Positions 46,111-62,349 of a DNA stretch of 64,000 bases are shown here, piece by piece. Source of the stretch: Verrucomicrobiia bacterium DG1235 (GTDB taxonomy: Bacteria > Verrucomicrobiota > Verrucomicrobiia > Opitutales > Opitutaceae); contig DS990592.1 of assembly GCA_000155695.1 (NCBI GenBank), positions 2,651,973 through 2,715,972 of the forward strand, read 5' to 3'. The position numbers and the translations under genes are program-made. Positions within the stretch are counted from its first letter, which is position 1; the number at the start of each line of letters is the position of its first letter. Under the pieces are notes generated by a model. It searched no databases. It had not been told where the DNA came from and saw only the letters and a list, made by a program, of their open reading frames with translations.

Positions 46111-46491
46111 TTATTTCTTATCCTTAGGACGCTTTACTCCATACTTGGAGCGACTGCGGCGACGCTTATCAACGCCTTGCGCGTCGAGCGTTCCACGAAC
46201 GATGTGGTAGCGAACACCTGGAAGATCCTTAACACGACCACCGCGAACGAGCACGATGCTGTGCTCCTGAAGGTTGTGCCCTTCGTCTGGGATGTAAGCG
46301 ATCACTTCGTAACCGTTGGTCAGACGAACCTTAGCCACCTTACGGATAGCGGAGTTTGGCTTCTTCGGCGTACGCGTCATGACTTGTACGCACACACCGC
46401 GTCGGAACGGGTTTGCTTCGAGGGCACGTGATTTAGACTTAGACTTAATCACTTTGCGCCCCAATCGGACTAACTGGTTAATAGTAGGCAT
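46111..46491 (-). CDS. rpsL: 30S ribosomal protein S12
   Basis: A 126-residue S12 ([65 protein letters not shown]). The decoding-site lysines in TPKKPNS and [10 protein letters not shown] are the wild-type, streptomycin-sensitive residues. First gene of the str cluster. Confidence 0.97.
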
Positions 46492-46543
46492 GGTGTGAAA
46501 TTTTGAGAAAAGAGCGTGAACGTATCGTTTGAAGGTGCTTCGG

Positions 46544-46570
46544 CAAGTATTTTCTACCGAAATAGGTCAA
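46544..46570 (-). promoter_or_regulatory. Possible promoter of the str operon
   Basis: On the minus strand TTGACC (46570-46565), a 15-base spacer, then TACTTG (46549-46544). The spacer is short and the -10 box poor, but it lies about 50 bases before the rpsL start. Confidence 0.3.
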
Positions 46571-46612
46571 AAAGCAGAACCAGCCCGTTCACTGGCCGAA
46601 TCTGCTCTTTTT
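46569..46612. terminator. Hairpin with flanking A and T runs upstream of rpsL
   Basis: AGCAGA (46573-46578) pairs with TCTGCT (46601-46606) and, inside, CCAG (46580-46583) with CTGG (46592-46595). Five T's follow on each strand. It may be an attenuator in the str leader, or an insulator between the divergent operons. Confidence 0.5.
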
Positions 46613-46899
46613 CTACGCGTTTTGTTTGGGCGGAAAGCTCGTGAGTAGCCTCCTATGTAGCGGAAAAAATTGAAGGACGAACGGTTTGGGGCGCGGTTGC
46701 TCACGCATCAAGCACAAATCGGCGAAATGATGCATAAAAAAGCGGGGCTTCTGATCTTATGGAAAAATCATATCCGCAATGGGAAGAGTTACTAGCAGTG
46801 AACGTCCCGCGAACTTGTGATTGAAGCCGACGCCTGCCTCGCCACACTCCGAACCTTCTTTGCCTTTGGTTTCTTAGAACCAACCACCCCAACTGCCCC

Positions 46900-48351
46900 A
46901 TGACACTTGATATCCCCGTATTATTCGCGGCCGGAGCCACTGACCTGACACCCTTTCTCGTCCTGCTCGCCGGCATCGCCCTCGTTATCATCTCTATCGC
47001 CGCGCTGAGAATTCATCCGTTCGTGGCTCTGATCCTCGCCGCCGCCTTGGTGGGATCCTTGACAAACCTCATCAACGGCTCCGGCGGAAACCCTATCACC
47101 ACTGCGATTAGCGACACCATGAAGCAGCTGGGCAATACGGCCGGCGGCATCGCGTGGATTATCGCCCTCGCCGCCATTATTGGACTTTGCCTCATGGAAA
47201 GCGGAGCAGCAGACCGCATTGTGCGCGGCATGATTCGCGCCTTCGGCGAAAAGCGGGCCGGCTATGCGATGCTCGCCTCCTCTTTCTTCCTCTCAATCCC
47301 CGTTTTCTTTGACACTGTATTCTACCTCATGGTCCCACTGGCTCAGGCCCTCGCGTTCCGCTTGGGGAAAAACTACGTCTATTTTATAGTAGCAGTCTGC
47401 ATGGGCGGAGCGATTACCCACAGCCTTGTCCCCCCAACACCGGGTCCGCTCATCGTCGTTGAAGCGCTGGGCATCAACCTCGGATTCACCATCATTGGCG
47501 GCATCGCGCTCGGCCTGATTCCCGCCTTCGTCGGCTTGAAGTGCGGAGGCATTCTCGACAGCCGACTCAACATCCCTCTGCGCGAGGGCGGTATGGTCAA
47601 GATCAAGGACCTCGAGGAGATCGTCGGAAAGGACGACTCCGAACTCCCAAGCTTTTTCGTCTCATCGCTTCCAGTCGCGCTACCTGTTCTGCTCATCGCT
47701 CTGGCCTCGGTCGTACAAGAGTTCTCGTCGCCGGACGCGATCGGCCCGCTCTACAGTATTATAGAAGTGTTCGGCCAAAAGCATGTCGCCATGTTTCTCG
47801 GGGCACTCATCGCCATCACTCTCATGGCTCGACAAAAGAAGCTCGACAAAACCGCCCTCTGGAAAGCCCTCGAAAGCCCGCTCGGAACTGCGGGGACCAT
47901 CATTCTCATCACTGCGGCGGGCGGCGCCTTTGGCGGCATGATCCGCCAATCGGGCATCGGCGACACAATTACCACGCTGACTCAAGGCACAGGCTTCTCT
48001 TTCATTCTGCTAGCCTGGATCGTCGCCGCAGTTATGAAGGTCGCCCAGGGCTCGTCGACCACATCGATGATCACCACATCGGGAATCATGGCAGGTATAC
48101 TTGCTACGATCTCCGCAAGCGGAGCCACTCTCGGCTACGATCCCTTCTACCTTTTTGCCGCAATCGCCTTTGGAGCCATGTTCGGATCATGGATGAACGA
48201 CAGCGGATTCTGGATCGTGTGCAAGATGACTGGCTTCACCGAGGCCGAAACCCTCAAAACTTGGACCCTTTCTGTCAGCATCATCTCGCTGGTGGGAATT
48301 GTGCAGCTCCTGATTGTTTCCGCGCTCTTCCCGTTCCCTTTCGGAAAATAG
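46900..48351 (+). CDS. GntP-family permease (gluconate or similar sugar-acid:H+ symporter)
   Basis: A 483-residue protein with about 12-14 hydrophobic helices. It matches the GntP family in HPFVALILAAALVGSL, the conserved VPPTPGPLIVVEALG motif, GGAFGGMIRQSGIGD, KVAQGSSTTSMITT and AIAFGAMFGSWMNDSGFWIV. Members import gluconate, D-glycerate, fructuronate and related acids with protons. No kinase or dehydrogenase for such a substrate lies nearby, so the substrate is open. It is divergent from rpsL and 267 bases before the ATP-grasp cassette, with which it may or may not share control. Confidence 0.88.
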   Translation: MTLDIPVLFAAGATDLTPFLVLLAGIALVIISIAALRIHPFVALILAAALVGSLTNLINGSGGNPITTAISDTMKQLGNTAGGIAWIIALAAIIGLCLMESGAADRIVRGMIRAFGEKRAGYAMLASSFFLSIPVFFDTVFYLMVPLAQALAFRLGKNYVYFIVAVCMGGAITHSLVPPTPGPLIVVEALGINLGFTIIGGIALGLIPAFVGLKCGGILDSRLNIPLREGGMVKIKDLEEIVGKDDSELPSFFVSSLPVALPVLLIALASVVQEFSSPDAIGPLYSIIEVFGQKHVAMFLGALIAITLMARQKKLDKTALWKALESPLGTAGTIILITAAGGAFGGMIRQSGIGDTITTLTQGTGFSFILLAWIVAAVMKVAQGSSTTSMITTSGIMAGILATISASGATLGYDPFYLFAAIAFGAMFGSWMNDSGFWIVCKMTGFTEAETLKTWTLSVSIISLVGIVQLLIVSALFPFPFGK

Positions 48352-48464
48352 TCAGCTCGGCGAGCAAAAGAGCGCTAATCTCCTTCGTTCCAGCGCCTTA
48401 TTGATTTGCTTAATAGGCCGGTTCGGCAGAAGGATATCGCGACCCGACAAGGCGCGCTTTGATT

Positions 48465-48480
48465 CGATCAACTTTGATCG
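48465..48480. promoter_or_regulatory. Perfect palindrome CGATCAA-CT-TTGATCG upstream of the ATP-grasp cassette
   Basis: Seven-base arms with a two-base centre, 139 bases before the start of the cassette and 114 after the permease stop. An overlapping TTGAT-TCG-ATCAA repeat lies beside it. It has no T run; an operator is the simplest reading. Confidence 0.4.
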
Positions 48481-48618
48481 TAGGCAACACGTTTTCCCAT
48501 GCAAACGAAGTCTACCTCTCTTTGTGGCACAGTCGGTGCTATCGATAGTCTTTTTCACGAGGACGCGTTTTCCATGGAATCAAATTCATCACGCGCCCCC
48601 TAGCTTTGTTTCCTTCCT

Positions 48619-50058
48619 ATGCAGATCAAATACGACACGGGCCCCTTCTACGACGAAGCTTTCGACAAGCAGGGAACTCCTCGTCCGCACTATCAGAACT
48701 TCATCGAACGCTTGGACGAACTGACAGAGGCGGAATTCAACCGAAAAAGAGAAGCGATCGACCTCTCGTTCCTCCAGCAGGGAATCACTTTCACCGTGTA
48801 CGGGAATCAGGAAAGCACCGAGCGCATTTTCCCCTTCGATATGATCCCGCGCATCATCCCCAAGACCGAGTGGGATCACCTCGCGCTCGGATTGGAGCAG
48901 CGCCTCAAAGCTCTGAATCTCTTCCTCAACGACGTCTATCACGAGCAAAAGATCATTAAGGACGGAGTCGTGCCCGCGGAGGTGCTCAATTCCTCCAAGC
49001 ACTTCCGCAAGGAAATCATGGGCCTAGACGTCCCGCGTGACATTTACATACACATTTGCGGGACTGACCTGATCCGGGACGACGACGGACAGTACCTCGT
49101 GCTCGAAGACAATGGTCGCTGTCCGTCAGGCGTGTCCTACATGATCGAAAATCGCCAGGCGATGAAGCGAGCTTTCCCCCGCTTTTTCCCCAAGGCCGGG
49201 GTAAGAGCCGTCCTAGACTATCCCGAGAAACTCCTTTCCGCCCTCCAGTACATCGCGCCAAACGGCAAGCGAAACCCAACCGTTGCCGTGCTCACCCCCG
49301 GCGTCTACAACTCCGCCTACTTCGAGCACTGCTTCCTCGCCCGTCAGATGGGCGTAGAAATCGTGGAGGGGCGCGACCTCATGGTCGATAGCGACGACTG
49401 CGTCTACATGCGCACCACCGAGGGCCTCAAGCAGGTCGACGTACTCTACCGGCGCATCGACGACGATTTCATCGACCCTGAGGTATTCCGCAAAGACTCG
49501 CTTCTCGGCGTCCCCGGACTCGTGCGAGCCTACAAAAAAGGAAACCTCGGCCTCGCGAACGCTCTCGGCACCGGAGTCGCAGACGACAAGGTCATGTACT
49601 GCTTCGTGCCGGATATGATCAAGTACTACCTCGGCGAAGACGCCATCCTTCCAAACGTCGAAACCTGGCTACCCTACCGCAAGGCGGACCTCGACTACGT
49701 TTTGGAAAACGCCGACAAGCTCGTCATCAAGGCGGCCAACGAAGCCGGCGGCTACGGCATGCTCATCGGTCCGCACGCCACCAAAAAGGAAGTCGAGGAA
49801 TTCAAGGCCAAGGTGAAAGCAGCGCCACGGGAATTCATCGCCCAAACGCCAATCTCTCTATCCCGTCACCCGACTTATTGCGACGAAGGCTTTGGCGGCC
49901 GACACATCGACCTGCGACCCTACATCATTTGCGGCGAGAAGACCCGTATCATTCCCGGCGGCCTTACCAGAGTCGCCCTCAAGAAAGGTTCGCTCGTGGT
50001 CAACTCCTCGCAAGGCGGCGGCAGCAAAGACACTTGGGTACTCAATGCCGACAGCTAA
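48619..50058 (+). CDS. Circularly permuted ATP-grasp protein (type 2, DUF404/DUF407)
   Basis: A 479-residue protein of the circularly permuted ATP-grasp family (COG2308). Recognisable blocks are [15 protein letters not shown] near the start, [70 protein letters not shown], the [24 protein letters not shown] stretch, and [18 protein letters not shown] with a nucleotide-binding lysine and glycine-rich loop. [14 protein letters not shown], then [32 protein letters not shown] end the protein. ATP-grasp enzymes join a carboxylate to an amine through an acyl-phosphate, so an amide or peptide ligase is expected; the substrate is unknown. It opens the five-gene cassette and precedes the alpha-E gene by 53 bases. 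Confidence 0.9.
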
Positions 50059-50111
50059 GCAGCCTCCGAACCACTCCACTCTCAGTCACAAGCCCTAAGC
50101 CGAAAAACACC

Positions 50112-51122
50112 ATGCTTTGCCGCGTCGCAGACTCACTCTTCTGGATGGCCCGCTATATCGAGCGAGCCGAAAACACCGTACGCCTCGTAGACGTCACCCT
50201 CCAAACTCTGCTTGAATCCGAGCACTCAAACGATGAGGTACACTACGCCCACTGGAAGCCCATCCTCTCCAGCCTGGGAGACCTCGCCCTCTTCGAGACG
50301 CTCTACAGCGAGAAATCGAACACCGAAATTCCAGAGTTCCTCATTTTCAACAGGGAGAATCCCAGCTCGGTTATAAGCTGCATATCGGCTGCGCGGGAAA
50401 ACGCCCGCATGATCCGCGACCAGATTTCCTCCGAAATGTGGGAGGTCATCAATCGCACCTACCTCTGGCTCAAAAAGCAGGACCCCGAAGCCGTCTGCCA
50501 AGAGGCCGACTACTCCTTCTTCCAACACATCAAGGAATTCTCCCAGCTCTTCCAAGGACTCGTCGATACCACTTTTCCGCACCAAATCGGCTTCGAATTC
50601 GTCAAAATCGGGGCCAACATCGAACGAGCGGACAAAACCTGCCGCATCCTCGACGCCAAGCACTACATGCTTCAGCAAACAGAGGTCAAAGACGACGCCC
50701 TCGACAACGCCCAATGGACCGCCATCCTGCGCGGCTGCAGCGCCCACGAGGCCTACCGACGCGTTTTCGTGGCCGATATCGAAGGCGACAACGTTCGCGA
50801 ATTTCTCCTGCGCTCGCGCGACTTTCCGCGCTCGGTGCTCTACTGCCTCACGCGCGTTCAACTCGCCATGCACGCCATCTCGAAATGTCCGACATCCCAC
50901 TTCTCCAACGAAGCGGAGCGACGACTCGGTCAGCTCATAGCCAAGCTCAACTACGCCAACCCAAGCGATCTAAACGGTAAAGAAGTCGGCAAGCTCATTG
51001 AATCAATCGAAGAGGACCTTGGCGAAATCGCGGTCGAAATCAGCAAACGCTACATGTTCTCGGAGATCGTCGATCCCGCGGAAGAAGCCGACCAGACTCA
51101 AACCTCCACCGCTTCGGCGTAA
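50112..51122 (+). CDS. Alpha-E domain protein
   Basis: A 336-residue all-helical protein from ATG 50112; the open frame begins further upstream, inside the ATP-grasp gene. The hallmark SLFWMARYIERAENTVRLVDVTL of the alpha-E (DUF403) family lies at the N-terminus, and NIERADKTCRILDAKHY repeats a related pattern in the middle. The last helices have QLIAKLNYA and EEDLGEIAVEISKRYMF. The domain always accompanies circularly permuted ATP-grasp proteins and is thought to be their partner or substrate-holding subunit; no activity is proven. It lies between the ligase and transglutaminase genes. Confidence 0.9.
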   Translation: MLCRVADSLFWMARYIERAENTVRLVDVTLQTLLESEHSNDEVHYAHWKPILSSLGDLALFETLYSEKSNTEIPEFLIFNRENPSSVISCISAARENARMIRDQISSEMWEVINRTYLWLKKQDPEAVCQEADYSFFQHIKEFSQLFQGLVDTTFPHQIGFEFVKIGANIERADKTCRILDAKHYMLQQTEVKDDALDNAQWTAILRGCSAHEAYRRVFVADIEGDNVREFLLRSRDFPRSVLYCLTRVQLAMHAISKCPTSHFSNEAERRLGQLIAKLNYANPSDLNGKEVGKLIESIEEDLGEIAVEISKRYMFSEIVDPAEEADQTQTSTASA

Positions 51123-51169
51123 AACCCGGGCAACTACACCCGAGTCACTTAGACCTTCAATCCTTCACC

Positions 51170-54100
51170 ATGGCCATCCGAGTCGCCCTCAATCACAGAA
51201 CCTTCTACAACTATGACCGACTCGCCACACTCGGTCCTCAAGTCGTACGCCTGCGTCCCGCTCCACACTGCCGATCACGCATTGTAAGCTATTCGCTCAA
51301 AGTCACCCCTGCTGACACCTTCGTAAACTGGCAGCAAGATCCGCAAAGCAACTACGTCGCCCGCTTGATGCTGCAAGCCCCGACTAGAAGCTTCGGGCTC
51401 GAGGTCGATCTCGTCGTCGACCTCGCCCCCATCAACCCTTTCGATTTCTTCCTCGAGGAAAGCGCCACTTCCTACCCTTTCGAATACAGCACAATTCTCA
51501 AAAGAGAGCTCCGCCCCTATTTCGCGAAGCTACCCATGAGAGGCAGGTTCAAGGAGCTAGTCGAATCCATCGATCGAACTAAAGTCGATACCAACGACTT
51601 CGTCGCCCATATAAACCAAAAAGTAAACTCCCTCCTCGAGTACACGCTCAGGATGGACCCCGGCATCTTCACGCCGGAAAAGACACTGCGTGAAGGCAAA
51701 GGAAGCTGTCGCGACTTCGCGTGGCTTCTCGTCCACCTTTTTCGTCGGCTAGGTATCGCTGCTCGATTTGTATCCGGATACTCAATACAACTTAAGCCAG
51801 ACCAAAAACCAGTCAACCCGGACGATCCCGGAGGCGTAAGCGAAGACGTTTGCGACCTGCACGCCTGGTGCGAGGTCTACCTGCCCGGCGCAGGTTGGGT
51901 CGGCCTAGACGCGACAAGCGGACTTTTCTGCGGCGAAGGGCATATCCCGCTCGCTACCTCAGCCGACGCCAAAGGCGCCTCGCCCATCGAAGGAGGCATC
52001 ACGGCCTGCAAGACTGAGTTCGACGTATCCATGTCAGTCACTCGCATCCACGAAGATCCGCGAGTCACCAAGCCCTACACCAGCGCTCAATGGAGCTCGA
52101 TTCTCTCCCTCGGCGACATCGTCGACAAACGGCTCGAAGAGGGAGACGTCCGTCTCAGCATGGGAGGCGAACCAACCTTCGTTTCCACCAAAGACCAGGA
52201 AGGCGAAGAGTGGAATACCGGAGCAGTTGGCCCTACTAAGAAACCCCTTTCCGACAAGCTCATCCGTCGCCTTCGCAAGAAATTTGGCCCCCAAGGCATG
52301 CTCCATTACGGACAAGGCAAGTGGTACCCAGGCGAACCCCTCCCGCGCTGGGCCATCGGGCTCTATTGGCGAAAAGACGGTCAACCTCTTTGGGAGAAGG
52401 AAGAGCTCATCGGCGACGAGTCCAAAGACTATGGATACACTCATGAAGACGCCAGAGAGCTCGTCGAAGAGCTAACCCGCCAGCTGCGCGTCGACAAGGT
52501 CTACATCAATCCCGCCTACGAAGACCCAGTCCAGTTTTCCCTCAAAGAGCGAAACCTTCCAGTCAACATCAACCCGCTGGACAACGACCTCGACGACCCT
52601 CAGGAACGCGAGAATCTCCTAAACATATTCCAGCGAGGCCTGAACACGCCCGTTGGCTACGTACTCCCCTTGCAGCGAGGATACGACAAAGACGGCCCCG
52701 CATGGCACAGCGGCATTTGGATGCTGCGCGGCAAGCAGATGTTTCTCACTCCTGGCGACTCCCCCCTCGGGCTTCGACTCCCTCTCGACCGATTGCCTTG
52801 GGTACGAGAAGAGGACTATCCATACGTCCACCCGGCAGACCCTTCCGCTCGGTACCCGAATCTTCCGTCGCGCAGATCACTCATCGTCCCCCAACGCCGA
52901 GAAGACGACAACGCAGCGCGCACACTCGCCAAAGCTGCGGAAGAAGAACAAAAAGCTGCAGAGTCCTTCGAAGAAGAGCTTCGCAAATTACCGCAAAACC
53001 AAGTTCCCGACGAGGGCCAGTCCGCTCCATGGGTAATTCGTACCGCTCTCTGCGTCGAATGCAGAAAAGGAAGACTCTACGTCTTCATGCCGCCGACAGA
53101 GAAGATAGAGGACTATATCGACCTAGTCGCCGCCATCGAGCACGCCGCCTCCGTAGTTAAAAAACCAGTACTGATAGAAGGCTACACGCCTCCTCACGAT
53201 CCACGGGTCGAATACATGAAGATCACCCCCGACCCCGGGGTCATGGAAGTCAATATCCACCCTTCCTACGCATGGAAGGAACTCGTCAGCAAAACGGAGA
53301 TTCTCTACGAAGAGGCCCGTCAGCTCGAGTTGGGTACGGACAAATTCCAACTCGACGGACGCCACACCGGAACGGGTGGTGGCAACCACATCGTAGTCGG
53401 AGGATCGACCCCTGCGGACTCGCCCTTCCTGCGGCGCCCCGATGTCCTGAAATCGCTCATCGGCTTCTGGATGAACCACCCATCTCTGAGCTACCTGTTC
53501 AGCGGCCTCTTTATCGGCCCCACTTCACAAGCTCCCCGCGTCGACGAAGGTCGACCCGACGCTGCCTACGAGATGGAGATCGCTTTCAAGCAAATCCCTC
53601 GCGCGAGCGAACCAAACATCCCACCCTGGCTCGTTGACCGCGTTTTCCGGCACCTCCTCACCGACCTGACGGGAAACACCCACCGAGCAGAATTCTGTAT
53701 CGACAAAATGTTCTCGCCCGACAGCGCCACAGGGCGACTCGGCCTCGTCGAATTCCGAGGATTCGAAATGCCTCCACACGCCCAAATGAGCCTTGCCCAG
53801 CAATTGCTCCTGCGCGCCCTCATCGTCCATTTCTGGGAAACGCCCTATGAGCAACCCATCACGCGCTGGCTCACCAGCCTGCACGATCGCTTCATGCTTC
53901 CTCACTTTGTAAAGGAGGATTTCAAGCAAGTCCTTCAAACCCTGCACGCCGCGAAACTACCCGTGCAGGAAAGCTGGTTCACCACCCATTTCGAATTCCG
54001 TTTCGCCATCATCGGCTCCGCCGTATTCGACAACGTATCCATCGAACTCAGACAAGGCATCGAACCGTGGCTCGTCCTCGGCGAAGAAGCCGGCGGAGGC

Positions 54101-54541
54101 GGCACCGCCCGCTACGTCGATTCGTCAATCGAACGCATGCAAGTAAAGGTTTCGGGGATCGATCCGGAGCGCTATGCCCTTTCCGTCAACAAGATCGAAA
54201 TCCCCCTAACGCCGACCAATACTCCAGGCTCCTACGTGGCCGGAGTACGCTACCGAGCCTGGCAGCCGCCCAGCTGCCTGCATCCGACCATTCCCGTCCA
54301 CGCTCCACTCGTTTTCGATATCGTAGACCGCTATCATTCACGGGCAATCGGCGGCTGCACCTACTTTGTCAGCCACCCGGGAGGCCGCGGCCACGAACGC
54401 TTTCCAGTCAACGCTCTGGAAGCGGAAACGCGGCGAGCCGAACGATTTCACCCATTCGGACACACCACAGGACCCATCCAGATTCGCAACATCCCTGCCA
54501 GCTCGGAAATGCCAGTGACCTTAGATCTGAGAAGAATCTGA
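51170..54541 (+). CDS. Transglutaminase-like protease fused to a DUF2126 domain
   Basis: A 1123-residue cytoplasmic protein. Residues 1-90 are the bacterial transglutaminase N-terminal beta domain (IRVALNHRTFYNYDRLATLGPQVVRLRP-type). The papain-like core follows, with catalytic Cys180 (GKGSCRDFAWLL), His231 (DLHAWCEVYLPG) and Asp247 (GLDATSG). From about residue 310 to the end runs the DUF2126 region, with LSMGGEPTFVS, GKWYPGEPLPRWAIGLYW, LDGRHTGTGGGNHIVVGG, GPTSQAPRVDEGRPDAAYEMEIA and GLVEFRGFEMPPHAQM. The paired His and EFR-type motifs recall GCS2-like amide ligases, a resemblance and not proof. Such fusions would combine making and cutting, or crosslinking, amide bonds. Centre of the cassette. 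Confidence 0.9.
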   Translation: MAIRVALNHRTFYNYDRLATLGPQVVRLRPAPHCRSRIVSYSLKVTPADTFVNWQQDPQSNYVARLMLQAPTRSFGLEVDLVVDLAPINPFDFFLEESATSYPFEYSTILKRELRPYFAKLPMRGRFKELVESIDRTKVDTNDFVAHINQKVNSLLEYTLRMDPGIFTPEKTLREGKGSCRDFAWLLVHLFRRLGIAARFVSGYSIQLKPDQKPVNPDDPGGVSEDVCDLHAWCEVYLPGAGWVGLDATSGLFCGEGHIPLATSADAKGASPIEGGITACKTEFDVSMSVTRIHEDPRVTKPYTSAQWSSILSLGDIVDKRLEEGDVRLSMGGEPTFVSTKDQEGEEWNTGAVGPTKKPLSDKLIRRLRKKFGPQGMLHYGQGKWYPGEPLPRWAIGLYWRKDGQPLWEKEELIGDESKDYGYTHEDARELVEELTRQLRVDKVYINPAYEDPVQFSLKERNLPVNINPLDNDLDDPQERENLLNIFQRGLNTPVGYVLPLQRGYDKDGPAWHSGIWMLRGKQMFLTPGDSPLGLRLPLDRLPWVREEDYPYVHPADPSARYPNLPSRRSLIVPQRREDDNAARTLAKAAEEEQKAAESFEEELRKLPQNQVPDEGQSAPWVIRTALCVECRKGRLYVFMPPTEKIEDYIDLVAAIEHAASVVKKPVLIEGYTPPHDPRVEYMKITPDPGVMEVNIHPSYAWKELVSKTEILYEEARQLELGTDKFQLDGRHTGTGGGNHIVVGGSTPADSPFLRRPDVLKSLIGFWMNHPSLSYLFSGLFIGPTSQAPRVDEGRPDAAYEMEIAFKQIPRASEPNIPPWLVDRVFRHLLTDLTGNTHRAEFCIDKMFSPDSATGRLGLVEFRGFEMPPHAQMSLAQQLLLRALIVHFWETPYEQPITRWLTSLHDRFMLPHFVKEDFKQVLQTLHAAKLPVQESWFTTHFEFRFAIIGSAVFDNVSIELRQGIEPWLVLGEEAGGGGTARYVDSSIERMQVKVSGIDPERYALSVNKIEIPLTPTNTPGSYVAGVRYRAWQPPSCLHPTIPVHAPLVFDIVDRYHSRAIGGCTYFVSHPGGRGHERFPVNALEAETRRAERFHPFGHTTGPIQIRNIPASSEMPVTLDLRRI

Positions 54542-54671
54542 CCCATCAGAGCACGGGCCCACGCACCGAACGCGCCAGCGTCAGCAGTTTTACAGATTCC
54601 ACACGCTTGCACTTAGCCTTTTGACCCGTACTGAGTCTGTCATAAACACGCCCAAACAGACTACACAGACG

Positions 54672-57230
54672 ATGACTCAAGCTGGCCCCACTAACCTGCT
54701 CAACAACTGGATGGGCGGCTATGAGCCGAAGAGCGGGTCCTACGACGAGCTAGTCGACGAAAACGGCAAGCAGCGGCCCCATTGGAAATCGACTTCCGAA
54801 CACCTCGGAAGTCTCGATCAAACCCGTTGGCTTCGCCGCGAGCAGCAGCTTAATCGGCTCATAAACGACAACGGCATCACCTATAACGTCTACGACGAGA
54901 CCGCGTCAAAAACCCGTCCCTGGTCCGTCGATATGGTGCCGCTCGCCATCTCCCAAAAGGAGATGACCTCCCTAGAGGCCTCCCTCAGTCAAAGAGCTCA
55001 CCTACTGAATTTGATTCTCGGCGATGTCTACGGACGCCAGACCATGCTGCAAAGCAGCAAGATGCATCCGTATCTAGTATTCTCAAACCCCTCTTTTCTC
55101 CGCCCCTGCCACGGGTTACTTCCATCAAAACACAGCCACATCCAACTCTACGCAGCGGATTTGGTACGGGCCCCAGATGGGCAATGGAGAGTCGTAGCCG
55201 ACCGAGTCGAAGCCGCCTCCGGCCTCGGCTACGCCCTGGAAAACCGCATGCTCATGTCACGCATCTTCCCCAAGGCAATCTGGCAGGCCAACATCCTATC
55301 GCTTCAGCCCTTTATCCAGAAATTCTGCCAGCACATAGAGTCGATGGCAGCGTCCTCCGCAGAGAGCCCTACCATCGCCCTCCTGACCGCTGGCCCCAAG
55401 AACGAAAGCTACTTCGAGCAATCCTTCCTCGCCCGAAATCTCGGCTACACGCTCGCCGAAGGCGAGGATCTCACTGTCCGCTCCAACCGGCTCTACATGA
55501 AGACGATCAACGGCGTACAGCAAGTTCACGGCCTGCTTCGCCGCGTCGACTCGCCTTGGATCGACCCGCTCGAGCTACGAAACGAATCCCTACTCGGAGT
55601 ACCGGGAATCGTAAACGCGGTTCGCCAACGCAATCTCTCCCTCGTGAACGCGCTCGGATCCGGCTTCGTGGAAGCCCCCGCCTTGCTCGCCTTCTTGCCC
55701 TGGTTCTGCCGGAACTACCTCGGCGAAGGCCTAGAAATGCCATCGATTGGCACTTGGTGGTGCGGACAAAAAGCCGAACGCGACTATGTAATCGAAAACC
55801 TCGAAAAACTGACAATCTCCCCAACCTTCCGAAAGCATAGTCAGCCATCCTACTACGGGCCGAAGCTAAGCAAAACGGAAAAAGAAAACCTCACCAAGCA
55901 AATCCTCCGTTACCCCGAACGCTACTGCGGCCAGGAAATCGTCTCTCAAGCGACGACCCCTAGCTACGAGGACGGCAAGCTCCAGCCACGCAATTTCATC
56001 ATGCGTGTCTTCCTCGTCGCCGACGGAAACGGTTGGAAAATGATGCCCGGCGGACTCGTTCGCCATCCTTCCGGCGACGACTCCATGACCTTCTCCATGC
56101 AACACGGAGGCGAAAGCAAGGACGTTTGGGTCATCCGAGATCCTGCTCTCGAAAGCGGAACGAGAGCCGCAGCTCACATAAATTTAGACAAGCCGATCCA
56201 TCGCAACCACACGGACCTGCCGAGCCGAACCGCGGACAATATGCATTGGCTCGGACGCTATATCGAACGAGCCGAATCTCTCGCTCGCCTGCTGCGAACG
56301 CTCACCAACTTCCTAACCGAAGATATGAGCGGCGAGTCCCAAAGAGCCATCACTCCACTCCTCGATCAAATCCTCCCTACCGGCGAATCGACAGAAAAGC
56401 TCTTCTATCCGGAGACCGAACGCATCGATATCTCCGCCGCAGAACCCTTTCTCATCCGAGCTCTCTTCTCCGAAGAAAATCCAGAAAGCCTTGTAAACAA
56501 TCTCCACTTCGTCGAACGAGCCGGAGCCAAGGTCAAGGAGCGCTTTTCCATCGACACTTGGAAACGAATGCAACGATTCAGGGAGTTGGCCAATTCGTAT
56601 AGCGGTCGAACAATCAGCATTTTCGATGACGAAGTGAGTATTTTCATAGACGACACCCTCGAGAATCTCGCCATCTTCATCGGCAACGCCTACGAAAACA
56701 TGACTCGAAGCCAAGGCTGGAGCTTCATGCAAATCGGACGCCGTATCGAACGAGCGCTCGCCATCTCCTCGCTCCTCCAAACCTCGTACTCGCTGGCTAA
56801 ACCCTACGACGAGCGCCTCGACCTGCAGCTTCTCTACTGGGCCGACTCGAGCATCACCTACCGTCGCCGGTATCTGAATACGATCTCCTCAGAGCGCGTC
56901 ATCGACCTGCTTTGCTTTGACCCGATCAACCCGCGCTCTCTCGTATATCAAATCGAAAAACTACGCAAACTGTTGAGCACCCTTCCTCACGCCACGCTAG
57001 GACCTCGCAATACCATAGACACCCTTTCGCTTCAGCTTTTCAGCCGCATCGGGCTAAGCAGTCCGGAAGCGCTCTTTCCAGCAGACGTGCAGCTACGAAT
57101 GAAAACCGTGCACGAATTTTTCGGTGAAACCACCCAGAACCTGCTCGAACTAGCGACCGCTCTGCAGCGTCACTATTTCGCTCACACCATTCAGTCTGCA
57201 GCCAGCAAGCCCACCGCTTACCTCGGATAA
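54672..57230 (+). CDS. Fusion of a circularly permuted ATP-grasp domain and an alpha-E domain
   Basis: About 852 residues from ATG 54672; a TTG at 54621 is in frame. Residues 1-510 repeat the ATP-grasp layout of the first cassette gene (GITYNVYDETASKTRPWSVD, LLGVPGIVNAVRQRNLSLVNALGSG, MMPGGLVRHPSG). Residues 530-850 are an alpha-E domain opening with RTADNMHWLGRYIERAESLARLL. Two motifs differ from the stand-alone enzyme. The [10 protein letters not shown] segment reads VVADRVEAASG here. The [11 protein letters not shown] loop with its lysine is replaced by ISPTFRKHSQP, without the glycine run. This half may therefore be a non-catalytic partner or use another nucleotide mode. The fusion supports a physical ATP-grasp/alpha-E pair. 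Ten bases separate it from the last gene. Confidence 0.9.
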   Translation: MTQAGPTNLLNNWMGGYEPKSGSYDELVDENGKQRPHWKSTSEHLGSLDQTRWLRREQQLNRLINDNGITYNVYDETASKTRPWSVDMVPLAISQKEMTSLEASLSQRAHLLNLILGDVYGRQTMLQSSKMHPYLVFSNPSFLRPCHGLLPSKHSHIQLYAADLVRAPDGQWRVVADRVEAASGLGYALENRMLMSRIFPKAIWQANILSLQPFIQKFCQHIESMAASSAESPTIALLTAGPKNESYFEQSFLARNLGYTLAEGEDLTVRSNRLYMKTINGVQQVHGLLRRVDSPWIDPLELRNESLLGVPGIVNAVRQRNLSLVNALGSGFVEAPALLAFLPWFCRNYLGEGLEMPSIGTWWCGQKAERDYVIENLEKLTISPTFRKHSQPSYYGPKLSKTEKENLTKQILRYPERYCGQEIVSQATTPSYEDGKLQPRNFIMRVFLVADGNGWKMMPGGLVRHPSGDDSMTFSMQHGGESKDVWVIRDPALESGTRAAAHINLDKPIHRNHTDLPSRTADNMHWLGRYIERAESLARLLRTLTNFLTEDMSGESQRAITPLLDQILPTGESTEKLFYPETERIDISAAEPFLIRALFSEENPESLVNNLHFVERAGAKVKERFSIDTWKRMQRFRELANSYSGRTISIFDDEVSIFIDDTLENLAIFIGNAYENMTRSQGWSFMQIGRRIERALAISSLLQTSYSLAKPYDERLDLQLLYWADSSITYRRRYLNTISSERVIDLLCFDPINPRSLVYQIEKLRKLLSTLPHATLGPRNTIDTLSLQLFSRIGLSSPEALFPADVQLRMKTVHEFFGETTQNLLELATALQRHYFAHTIQSAASKPTAYLG

Positions 57231-57239
57231 AAAACGACT

Positions 57240-58115
57240 ATGGCAAGCTACCTAATACACCACAAGACGAGCTACGCCTACCGGTACCCTGTCACCTCTT
57301 CGCATCACACCGCGATTTTCAAGCCACAGGACAACGATACTCAGTCCTGCTCCCGTTACTCTTTGGACGTCAGCCCTGAGCACTCGGATATGATTGAGAG
57401 AAAGGACTACTTCGGAAACACAGTACAACTCTTCTCTATCCAAGAACTACATGAAAAACTTGTCGTCGAAGCCCAAAGCAGAGTCGAAACCAACACCGTT
57501 CCCGTAGATCTCCAAACTCTGAATACGCCGACAGACGAAATCCGAACCGCCCTCACTGACATCACACGAACCGACTTGATCGACGCCAAAGAATTCCTCT
57601 ACGAAACGGAATACACGCCCAAGACCGACGAGATCATTGCATTCGGAGAGCGCTTCTTCGGAGGTGATGCCCCTATCGGACCCGCCCTACTCGCTTTGCT
57701 AGCCGCATTTAAGGAGGAGTTCGAATTCGATCCGGAGGCCACCGATATCCATACGCCGATAACCGAGACGCTCGCCAACAAACGAGGCGTCTGCCAAGAC
57801 TTCGCTCAGCTCATGATCGGCACGCTACGCGCTCAAGGTCTAGCTGCGTGTTACGCCAGTGGATACATCCTTACCATGCCTCCGCCCGGCACTCCTCGCC
57901 TAATCGGAGCCGACGCATCACACGCTTGGGTCAGCGTCTTCGTACCTGAGCACGGTTGGATTGATGTCGATCCGACAAACAATATCGTATGCGGAGACCA
58001 GCACGTAACCGTCGCCTACGGTCGCGACTTCTCCGATGTCAGCATGCTCAGCGGAGCCGTCACCGGAGGCGGCGAGCACACGGTAAACGTAGAGGTCACC
58101 ATGCAGCCCGTGTAA
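57240..58115 (+). CDS. Transglutaminase-like cysteine protease family protein
   Basis: A 291-residue protein with the bacterial transglutaminase N-terminal domain (SYLIHHKTSYAYRYPV, YFGNTVQLFSI) and a papain-like core. Its triad reads Cys185 (RGVCQDFAQLM), His228 (DASHAWVSVFVP) and Asp244 (IDVDPTNN). No signal peptide is seen, so it acts in the cytoplasm. Relatives in this context are predicted peptidases or isopeptidases that process the product of the ATP-grasp ligases. It closes the cassette and is followed by the terminator at 58146-58178. Confidence 0.92.
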   Translation: MASYLIHHKTSYAYRYPVTSSHHTAIFKPQDNDTQSCSRYSLDVSPEHSDMIERKDYFGNTVQLFSIQELHEKLVVEAQSRVETNTVPVDLQTLNTPTDEIRTALTDITRTDLIDAKEFLYETEYTPKTDEIIAFGERFFGGDAPIGPALLALLAAFKEEFEFDPEATDIHTPITETLANKRGVCQDFAQLMIGTLRAQGLAACYASGYILTMPPPGTPRLIGADASHAWVSVFVPEHGWIDVDPTNNIVCGDQHVTVAYGRDFSDVSMLSGAVTGGGEHTVNVEVTMQPV

Positions 58116-58145
58116 GCCCATTCAGCACACGCTTTTAAAACAAAA

Positions 58146-58178
58146 AAAGGCCGTATCCCTTATCGGGATACGGCCTTT
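58146..58178. terminator. Perfect bidirectional terminator between the cassette and rpoC
   Basis: A 14-bp perfect stem (58146-58159 with 58165-58178, five-base loop), A-rich before and T-rich after. It can stop the cassette transcript on the plus strand and the rpoBC transcript on the minus strand. Confidence 0.92.
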
Positions 58179-58200
58179 GTTTTAAATTAACTTTCCTAGC

Positions 58201-62349
<4,149 letters not shown>

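Follow-up and report, generated by a model that had tools for sequence, protein, structure and literature searches.

What kind of system is encoded by five adjacent genes of Verrucomicrobiia bacterium DG1235, lying at positions 48619 to 58115 of a 64,000-nucleotide stretch of contig DS990592.1 (the window), and are both of its ATP-grasp proteins ligases? An earlier note, made from the sequence alone, had described these genes as an amide-ligase, alpha-E and transglutaminase cassette. The cluster is genuine, its layout is known, and it belongs to a biochemically unsolved kind of system. We favor, with moderate confidence, an amide-bond system of two units that works without the proteasome homolog Anbu, has a sigma-54-type promoter and is probably induced by nitrogen limitation. 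Unit I would comprise an intact circularly permuted ATP-grasp ligase and an alpha-E protein, and unit II a transglutaminase fused to a glutamine synthetase (GS)-like DUF2126 domain, an ATP-grasp with a dead ATP site fused to a second alpha-E, and a stand-alone transglutaminase; the output would be the recovery or re-routing of nitrogen. The make-up of the cassette, the active-site residues kept or lost, the co-occurrence of its parts and its promoter-like sites can be read from the sequences themselves; the reactions proposed below are inferred.

All five genes are on the forward strand. The first (48619..50058) encodes a solo permuted ATP-grasp protein of 479 aa, the likely ligase; the second (50112..51122) a solo alpha-E protein, for which the start ATG 50112 is preferred to the listed TTG 49878, the alignment of relatives beginning at ATG 50112; the third (51170..54541) a protein of 1123 aa with a transglutaminase domain fused to DUF2126, a probable GS-fold amidoligase (TG-DUF2126); the fourth (54621..57230, starting at TTG 54621 or ATG 54672) an apparent pseudo-ATP-grasp fused to alpha-E; and the fifth (57240..58115) a stand-alone transglutaminase-like cysteine enzyme of 291 aa. 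With each open reading frame (ORF) counted from its ATG, the gaps are 53, 47, 130 and 9 bases, so that the tight same-strand arrangement of the earlier note (gaps of 9 to 130 bases) stands. Its family assignments, for which profile searches had been named as the refuting test, also hold, every gene scoring well above its Pfam cut-off (bits/gathering score: CP_ATPgrasp_2, 536.8/32 in the solo ligase and 440.1/32 in the fused protein; Alpha-E, 313.8/20.8 in the solo and 216.2/20.8 in the fused protein; DUF2126, 1298.3/27; Transglut_core, 69.7/23 in TG-DUF2126 and 62.7/23 in the stand-alone enzyme), and NCBIfam profiles gave no match to the five proteins at E ≤ 0.001. Permuted ATP-grasp, alpha-E and transglutaminase genes are thus adjacent on one strand, as in amide-forming systems, and PMC6376114, PMC5666114 and PMC3597751 support connecting them with systems predicted to form amides or peptides (here and below, papers are cited for the accessible parts of their text).

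The two ATP-grasp proteins differ at the active site, and only the first, solo one is a plausible ligase. It matches PDB 3n6x, which bears the putative name of glutathionylspermidine synthase, at E 7.9e-165 over nearly its whole length, and it carries E163, N165, R167, K324, K371, G380 and D431, like other solo copies. We take these seven catalytic residues to be the Mg/ATP site on the basis of ATP-grasp motifs (E-x-N, Lys, Gly-rich loop) rather than a liganded structure. At the seven places the fused protein of the window reads A R E P S P I, versus E N R K K G D in the solo protein. Copies in relatives were classed by the presence of alpha-E in the same frame, independently of the residues and excluding frames under 430-450 aa, which gave 23 solo and 20 fused copies in the phylum, totals that rose to 53 and 91 once the named loci were added (the window and the first set included; overlapping loci such as L063/L114 are retained, and one fused row, L064, ends at a contig edge). 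All seven residues are present in 52 of the 53 solo copies, the remaining one keeping five with unknown letters at two. The 91 fused copies retain none (26 copies), one (58) or two (7) of the seven when gaps are counted as not kept.

That both proteins are ligases, as the earlier note had it, and perhaps ligases of different specificity, could be argued from their scores above the CP_ATPgrasp cut-offs, from eight scaffold residues (R179, D253, D286, G297, G300, N314, G317 and D471) kept in 91/91 fused copies and from K371, retained in 62/91, the window's fused protein not among them. At the other six places, with gaps set aside, the solo residue is found in few or no fused copies (N165 0/90, K324 0/91, D431 0/91, G380 2/86, R167 3/91, E163 5/90). 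Nine further copies behave likewise: the 5 solo ones keep all residues examined, whereas the 4 fused ones are without N165, R167, K324, G380 and D431 (one gap at D431) and retain none of the seven but K371, which 3 of them have. On this residue evidence two active ATP-grasps are disfavored and we regard them as very improbable. Neither is the fused domain simply decaying, because the eight scaffold residues are invariant and the fused frames, of 829-901 aa, are stop-free in 30 genomes. At the old N165 and R167 places the fused copies carry R in 70/91 and Q in 63/91, respectively. The fused protein therefore appears to be a conserved pseudo-ligase without an ATP site. In a FastTree tree, which gave long-branch warnings, all fused copies lie on one side of a single branch with local support 100. 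We propose, more tentatively, that the two-unit system runs on a pair of active and inactive ATP-grasps that split once long ago, that the inactive, alpha-E-joined member swapped its Mg/ATP site for another common set of residues and acts as a substrate-holding or regulatory subunit, and that the whole would be a nitrogen-starvation amide cycle needing no proteasome-like particle.

The third gene was described in the earlier note as a cysteine enzyme. This is right for its transglutaminase domain, whose Cys-His-Asp triad (C180, H231, D247) is intact, as it is in 90/90 relatives, but the protein is not solely a cysteine enzyme, DUF2126 being probably a second ligase, a GS-like amidoligase domain as judged from a predicted structure. 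In a Foldseek search with the DUF2126 model (15 sequences in its alignment, pLDDT 69.7), chains of GS or gamma-glutamylmethylamide synthetase (GmaS) made up 49 of the 50 best rows among 230 matches at E ≤ 10, with a best E of 0.026, a target TM of at most 0.28 and many chains from the same entries. In a sequence search of PDB only the transglutaminase part of the protein was matched. Within DUF2126, 26 charged or polar positions are kept in 87-90 of 90 relatives. A literature search for DUF2126, and for the combined COG numbers of the cassette families, gave no match. A short DUF2126 variant occurs in L085, L088, L089, L090 and L093, in frames of 709-740 aa (two frames in L093) with no fused transglutaminase; it adjoins a separate transglutaminase gene, and profile positions of about 175-211 and 265-325 are unmatched. 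The triad of the window's stand-alone transglutaminase (C185, H228, D244) is also complete, and among 91 stand-alone transglutaminases of the fetched loci, some of them not orthologous to the last gene of the cassette, C is kept in 88 (3 have S), H in 91 and D in 91.

The alpha-E protein is, by its sequence, a doubled unit with two ER motifs: its halves are homologous at an hhalign E of 9e-23, compared with 0.027 or worse in 20 column shuffles. Its AlphaFold model (21 sequences, pLDDT 86) found no PDB match by Foldseek at E ≤ 0.001 (best E 0.46). The substrate-holding role that the earlier note gave to alpha-E is a guess. No prior statement of an inactive ATP-grasp or of alpha-E duplication was found in a literature search, which did not cover Iyer et al. 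2009.

How far do these parts travel together? A contig scan with the TG-DUF2126 alignment yielded at least 591 confirmed relatives, and the locus counts rest on the best 80 of these. Ligase, alpha-E and TG-DUF2126 follow each other in this order on one strand in 18 of the 80 loci (the set of five is complete in 16 and truncated by a contig end in 2), which by their record titles span Pseudomonadota, Thermodesulfobacteriota, Planctomycetota, Kiritimatiellota and Verrucomicrobiota. Cassettes of Marinobacter, Desulfobulbales, Burkholderiales and Kiritimatiellota (e.g., L162, L178, L170 and L115) share the parts, order and strand of the window but have diverged sequences, their TG-DUF2126 being 53-72% identical to the window's. 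The cassette layout is not new, and the cluster is widely and well conserved. In 13 of the 80 loci the solo ligase lies elsewhere in the locus (divergent from TG-DUF2126 in 12), and in 49 no solo ligase is present in the locus; a fused-type ATP-grasp lies downstream of TG-DUF2126 on the same strand in 73. Unit II goes with a solo ligase in every genome tested: when the genomes of 30 of the 80 loci were searched whole with the intact ligase, each gave a solo-like match (52-62% identical) and a fused-like match (28-38%), with the solo gene outside the fetched locus in 26 of the 30. Conversely, a single alpha-E without DUF2126 is found in five genomes (G060, G001, G102, G047 and G052), showing that unit I exists alone; G008, G054 and G072 were outside the solo-ligase check. 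DUF2126 is optional, because three genomes (G147, G152 and G172) have two alpha-E matches and no DUF2126. Two of the 41 family genomes (G154 and G173), both fragmented assemblies, score as having the fused type but contain no more than a fragment of a second alpha-E.

The comparisons across Verrucomicrobiota and within the genome that the earlier note had proposed were run. The host genome (5.78 Mb, 96.5% complete) has two alpha-E matches in a profile search, both inside the cassette. Alpha-E is present in 26 and DUF2126 in 16 of 115 phylum genomes, and in 25 and 22, respectively, of 41 family genomes (own genome included in each set); the same parts recur, and gene order is fluid among close relatives. 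In the same-genus genome G158 the ligase (75% identical), alpha-E (61%), fusion (56/41%) and transglutaminase (56%) lie on contig C6 and DUF2126 on C11, and in G148 TG-DUF2126 comes first with the other four genes after it. In a tree, TG-DUF2126 groups with Kiritimatiellota and phylum relatives (local support 99-100), but a close relative (L234, 76-82% identical) is absent from it, and no recent transfer is claimed.

The earlier note had found no Anbu gene in the window, and the search it proposed extends this to the whole genome: the proteasome family profile (PF00227) had no match in the host genome or in any of the 41 family genomes, 25 of which carry alpha-E and 22 DUF2126. This profile can detect Anbu, because it matches in Synechococcus elongatus, and cyanobacteria have Anbu and lack HslV (PMC5666114). 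The cassette is thus unlike the four-gene Anbu operon, and Anbu is dispensable in these genomes: it cannot be an obligatory part, because the family has the system and no proteasome-family gene, and dependence on Anbu is rejected for the host's family. These results bear on protein tagging or turnover, in which a tag put on by the ligases would be taken off, or the target degraded, by a proteasome-like peptidase (Anbu) or by the transglutaminases. PMC6376114 and PMC5666114 cite proposals of such a role, Anbu operons have alpha-E, ATP-grasp and transglutaminase as their partner genes, and transglutaminases with intact triads could possibly remove a tag. Given the missing proteasome family in the host's family, and its presence in only 8 of the 115 phylum genomes (Anbu, HslV and 20S not told apart), 6 of them (G008, G038, G042, G054, G066 and G072) among the 26 alpha-E carriers, we consider tagging or turnover unlikely.

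Is the cassette linked to nitrogen? The sigma-54 consensus used here is TGGCACN5TTGCW. A promoter-like site of this -24/-12 type, TGGCACAGTCGGTGCT, lies upstream of the first gene at 48525..48540 on the forward strand; it has one mismatch and is the sole site with at most one mismatch on either strand of the window, and rpoN is present in the genome. A site this good arose in 0.3% of 20,000 forward-strand shuffles of the 267-bp gap. Allowing two mismatches yields 18 matches in the window, which does not exceed the chance expectation of 23.9. Among 22 relatives from the phylum, 11 have a site with at most one mismatch ahead of the solo ligase and 17 have one with at most two, compared with 3 and 23 of 598 control frames (frames of 250 codons or more, unverified as genes, that match no part of the cassette) and 26 and 144 of 4000 random stretches. 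In the named loci the corresponding counts are 8 and 19 of 30 ligase heads and 23 and 44 of 80 TG-DUF2126 heads, some of the latter belonging to internal genes, compared with 14 and 94 of 1468 controls. NtrC sites were scanned only as a very loose GC-N13-GC pattern, which is uninformative, and a sigma-70 promoter scan of 46500-59500 found none where 4.7 were expected. Published data on relatives point the same way. In Burkholderia cenocepacia the I35_5080-83 cluster, described as under sigma-54 and NtrC, is down 6.0-9.4 fold in an ntrC mutant (PMC5491218); it groups DUF404/DUF407, DUF403, transglutaminase-like and large transglutaminase-like genes, but has four genes and is likened to the cassette by annotation alone. 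In Pseudomonas putida, PP_2685 and PP_2688 show log2 fold changes of 4.44 and 3.99 on nitrate versus ammonium (PMC8050072), PP_2686-2688 are up 11-15 fold in the nitrogen-limited wild type (PMC7801951), and the PP_2685-2688 genes rise under nitrogen limitation also in PMC3325844. Marine metagenomes tie the cassette domains to urea metabolism (PMC3597751). From the promoter-like sites and these data on two proteobacteria, regulation of the cassette is probably linked to nitrogen limitation. A Kozakia baliensis plasmid (L236, 3579-14141) has alpha-E, a permuted ATP-grasp and two transglutaminases close to genes whose annotations are arginine deiminase family and amino-acid ABC transporter, which adds a weak hint at nitrogen metabolism.

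Several observations weigh against the reading that we favor. In the phylum set, TG-DUF2126 heads have the site in 0/10 (at most one mismatch) and 2/10 (at most two); among the 18 one-strand loci it precedes the ligase in 3 and 9; the sites of the close relatives G158 and G148 have 2 and 3 mismatches; and the gene heads counted are not independent lineages. In an rpoN mutant of P. putida under nitrogen limitation, PP_2686-2688 are still up 14-20 fold and urt genes 7-17 fold, and PP_2685, the proteasome homolog, changed only 1.12 fold in the wild type in the same table (PMC7801951); this operon is moreover of the Anbu type, unlike the five-gene type here. The Yersinia ATP-grasp homolog was not stimulated by glutamate or glutamine (PMC6376114). 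The GS-like fold match of the DUF2126 model is weak, with no Foldseek match at E ≤ 0.001 and the low pLDDT given above.

We nevertheless consider the following scheme for the nitrogen-linked two-unit system. The intact ATP-grasp would make an acyl phosphate and form one amide bond; the Yersinia homolog does release orthophosphate from ATP (PMC6376114). DUF2126 would form a second amide bond, possibly of the gamma-glutamyl type, and the papain-like transglutaminases would cut or transfer the acyl group. The fusion of pseudo-ligase and alpha-E, itself without catalysis, may bind the substrate of the ligase and serve to position or regulate that enzyme, and the output would be nitrogen recovered or re-routed from amines or peptides under nitrogen shortage. 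Among known systems, the Anbu operon (P. putida PP_2685-2688; PMC6376114, PMC5666114) has the same three partner families and, in P. putida, is induced on nitrogen limitation, but the cassette dispenses with Anbu and has in addition TG-DUF2126, a second transglutaminase gene and the fusion of pseudo-ATP-grasp and alpha-E. RimK/RimB and RloABC likewise pair an ATP-grasp with a cleaving or inactive partner, RloB being an inactive transglutaminase (PMC12239564); they differ in having aspartic peptidases and, in the accessible text of that paper, no alpha-E, and in the cassette the inactive member is the ATP-grasp.

The surroundings of the cassette raise a further alternative. The cassette is preceded by a GntP-family permease gene (46900-48351, forward strand; Pfam 320.8 bits, NCBIfam gntP 275.7 bits, below the cut-off of 292.75). 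If the cluster were a pathway whose product, a small peptide or secondary metabolite, is secreted, its mixture of enzymes that form and cut bonds would be accounted for, and this permease could be the transporter. The gaps of the cassette leave room for a tiny precursor gene at most (ORFs were listed from 120 aa), no GntP gene lies near the module in 40 phylum regions, the 80 named loci or two close relatives, so that the permease is rejected as a cassette part, and secondary-metabolite clusters do not usually have a core that is retained, like this one, in several phyla. We regard such a pathway as quite improbable. The genes flanking the pair on the reverse strand (46111-46491 and 58201-62349) are taken to be rpsL and rpoC. 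The terminator that the earlier note placed at the cassette end is confirmed at 58146..58178 as a bidirectional stem-loop common to the cassette and the convergent rpoC, with a 14-pair stem (8 G-C pairs), a loop of 5 and T-rich tails on both strands; it accounts for 2 of 20 predicted sites (one per strand), the remaining 18 having 3 or 4 G-C pairs and the total being near chance level (mean 14.7, sd 5.2). Of 30 loci fetched from the family, 10 have an rpoC match that stops 309-1002 bases short of rpsL, and the remaining 20 show no rpoC within the 1.5 kb covered or run to a contig end. Nine longer stretches revealed rpoC in four cases, at 0.8-6.2 kb from rpsL, and none in five. The region 46111-62349, in which rpsL and rpoC enclose the oppositely oriented cassette and GntP gene, is a variable site of insertion within a cluster of core genes. 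At the same place G158 carries 6.2 kb of different genes, among them (L224, 2351-6863) two adjacent ORFs of 888 and 613 aa that resemble HSP70/DnaK by eye.

To the specialist, the points of interest are the conserved pseudo-ligase, the duplication in alpha-E, the independence from Anbu in the host's family and the promoter evidence. The cassette families span many phyla, and the Anbu papers PMC6376114 and PMC5666114, in their accessible parts, report no physiological substrate. A conserved and probably catalytically dead partner means that biochemists should test both ATP-grasp proteins together, and the nitrogen-linked promoter would indicate to physiologists when to seek the product.

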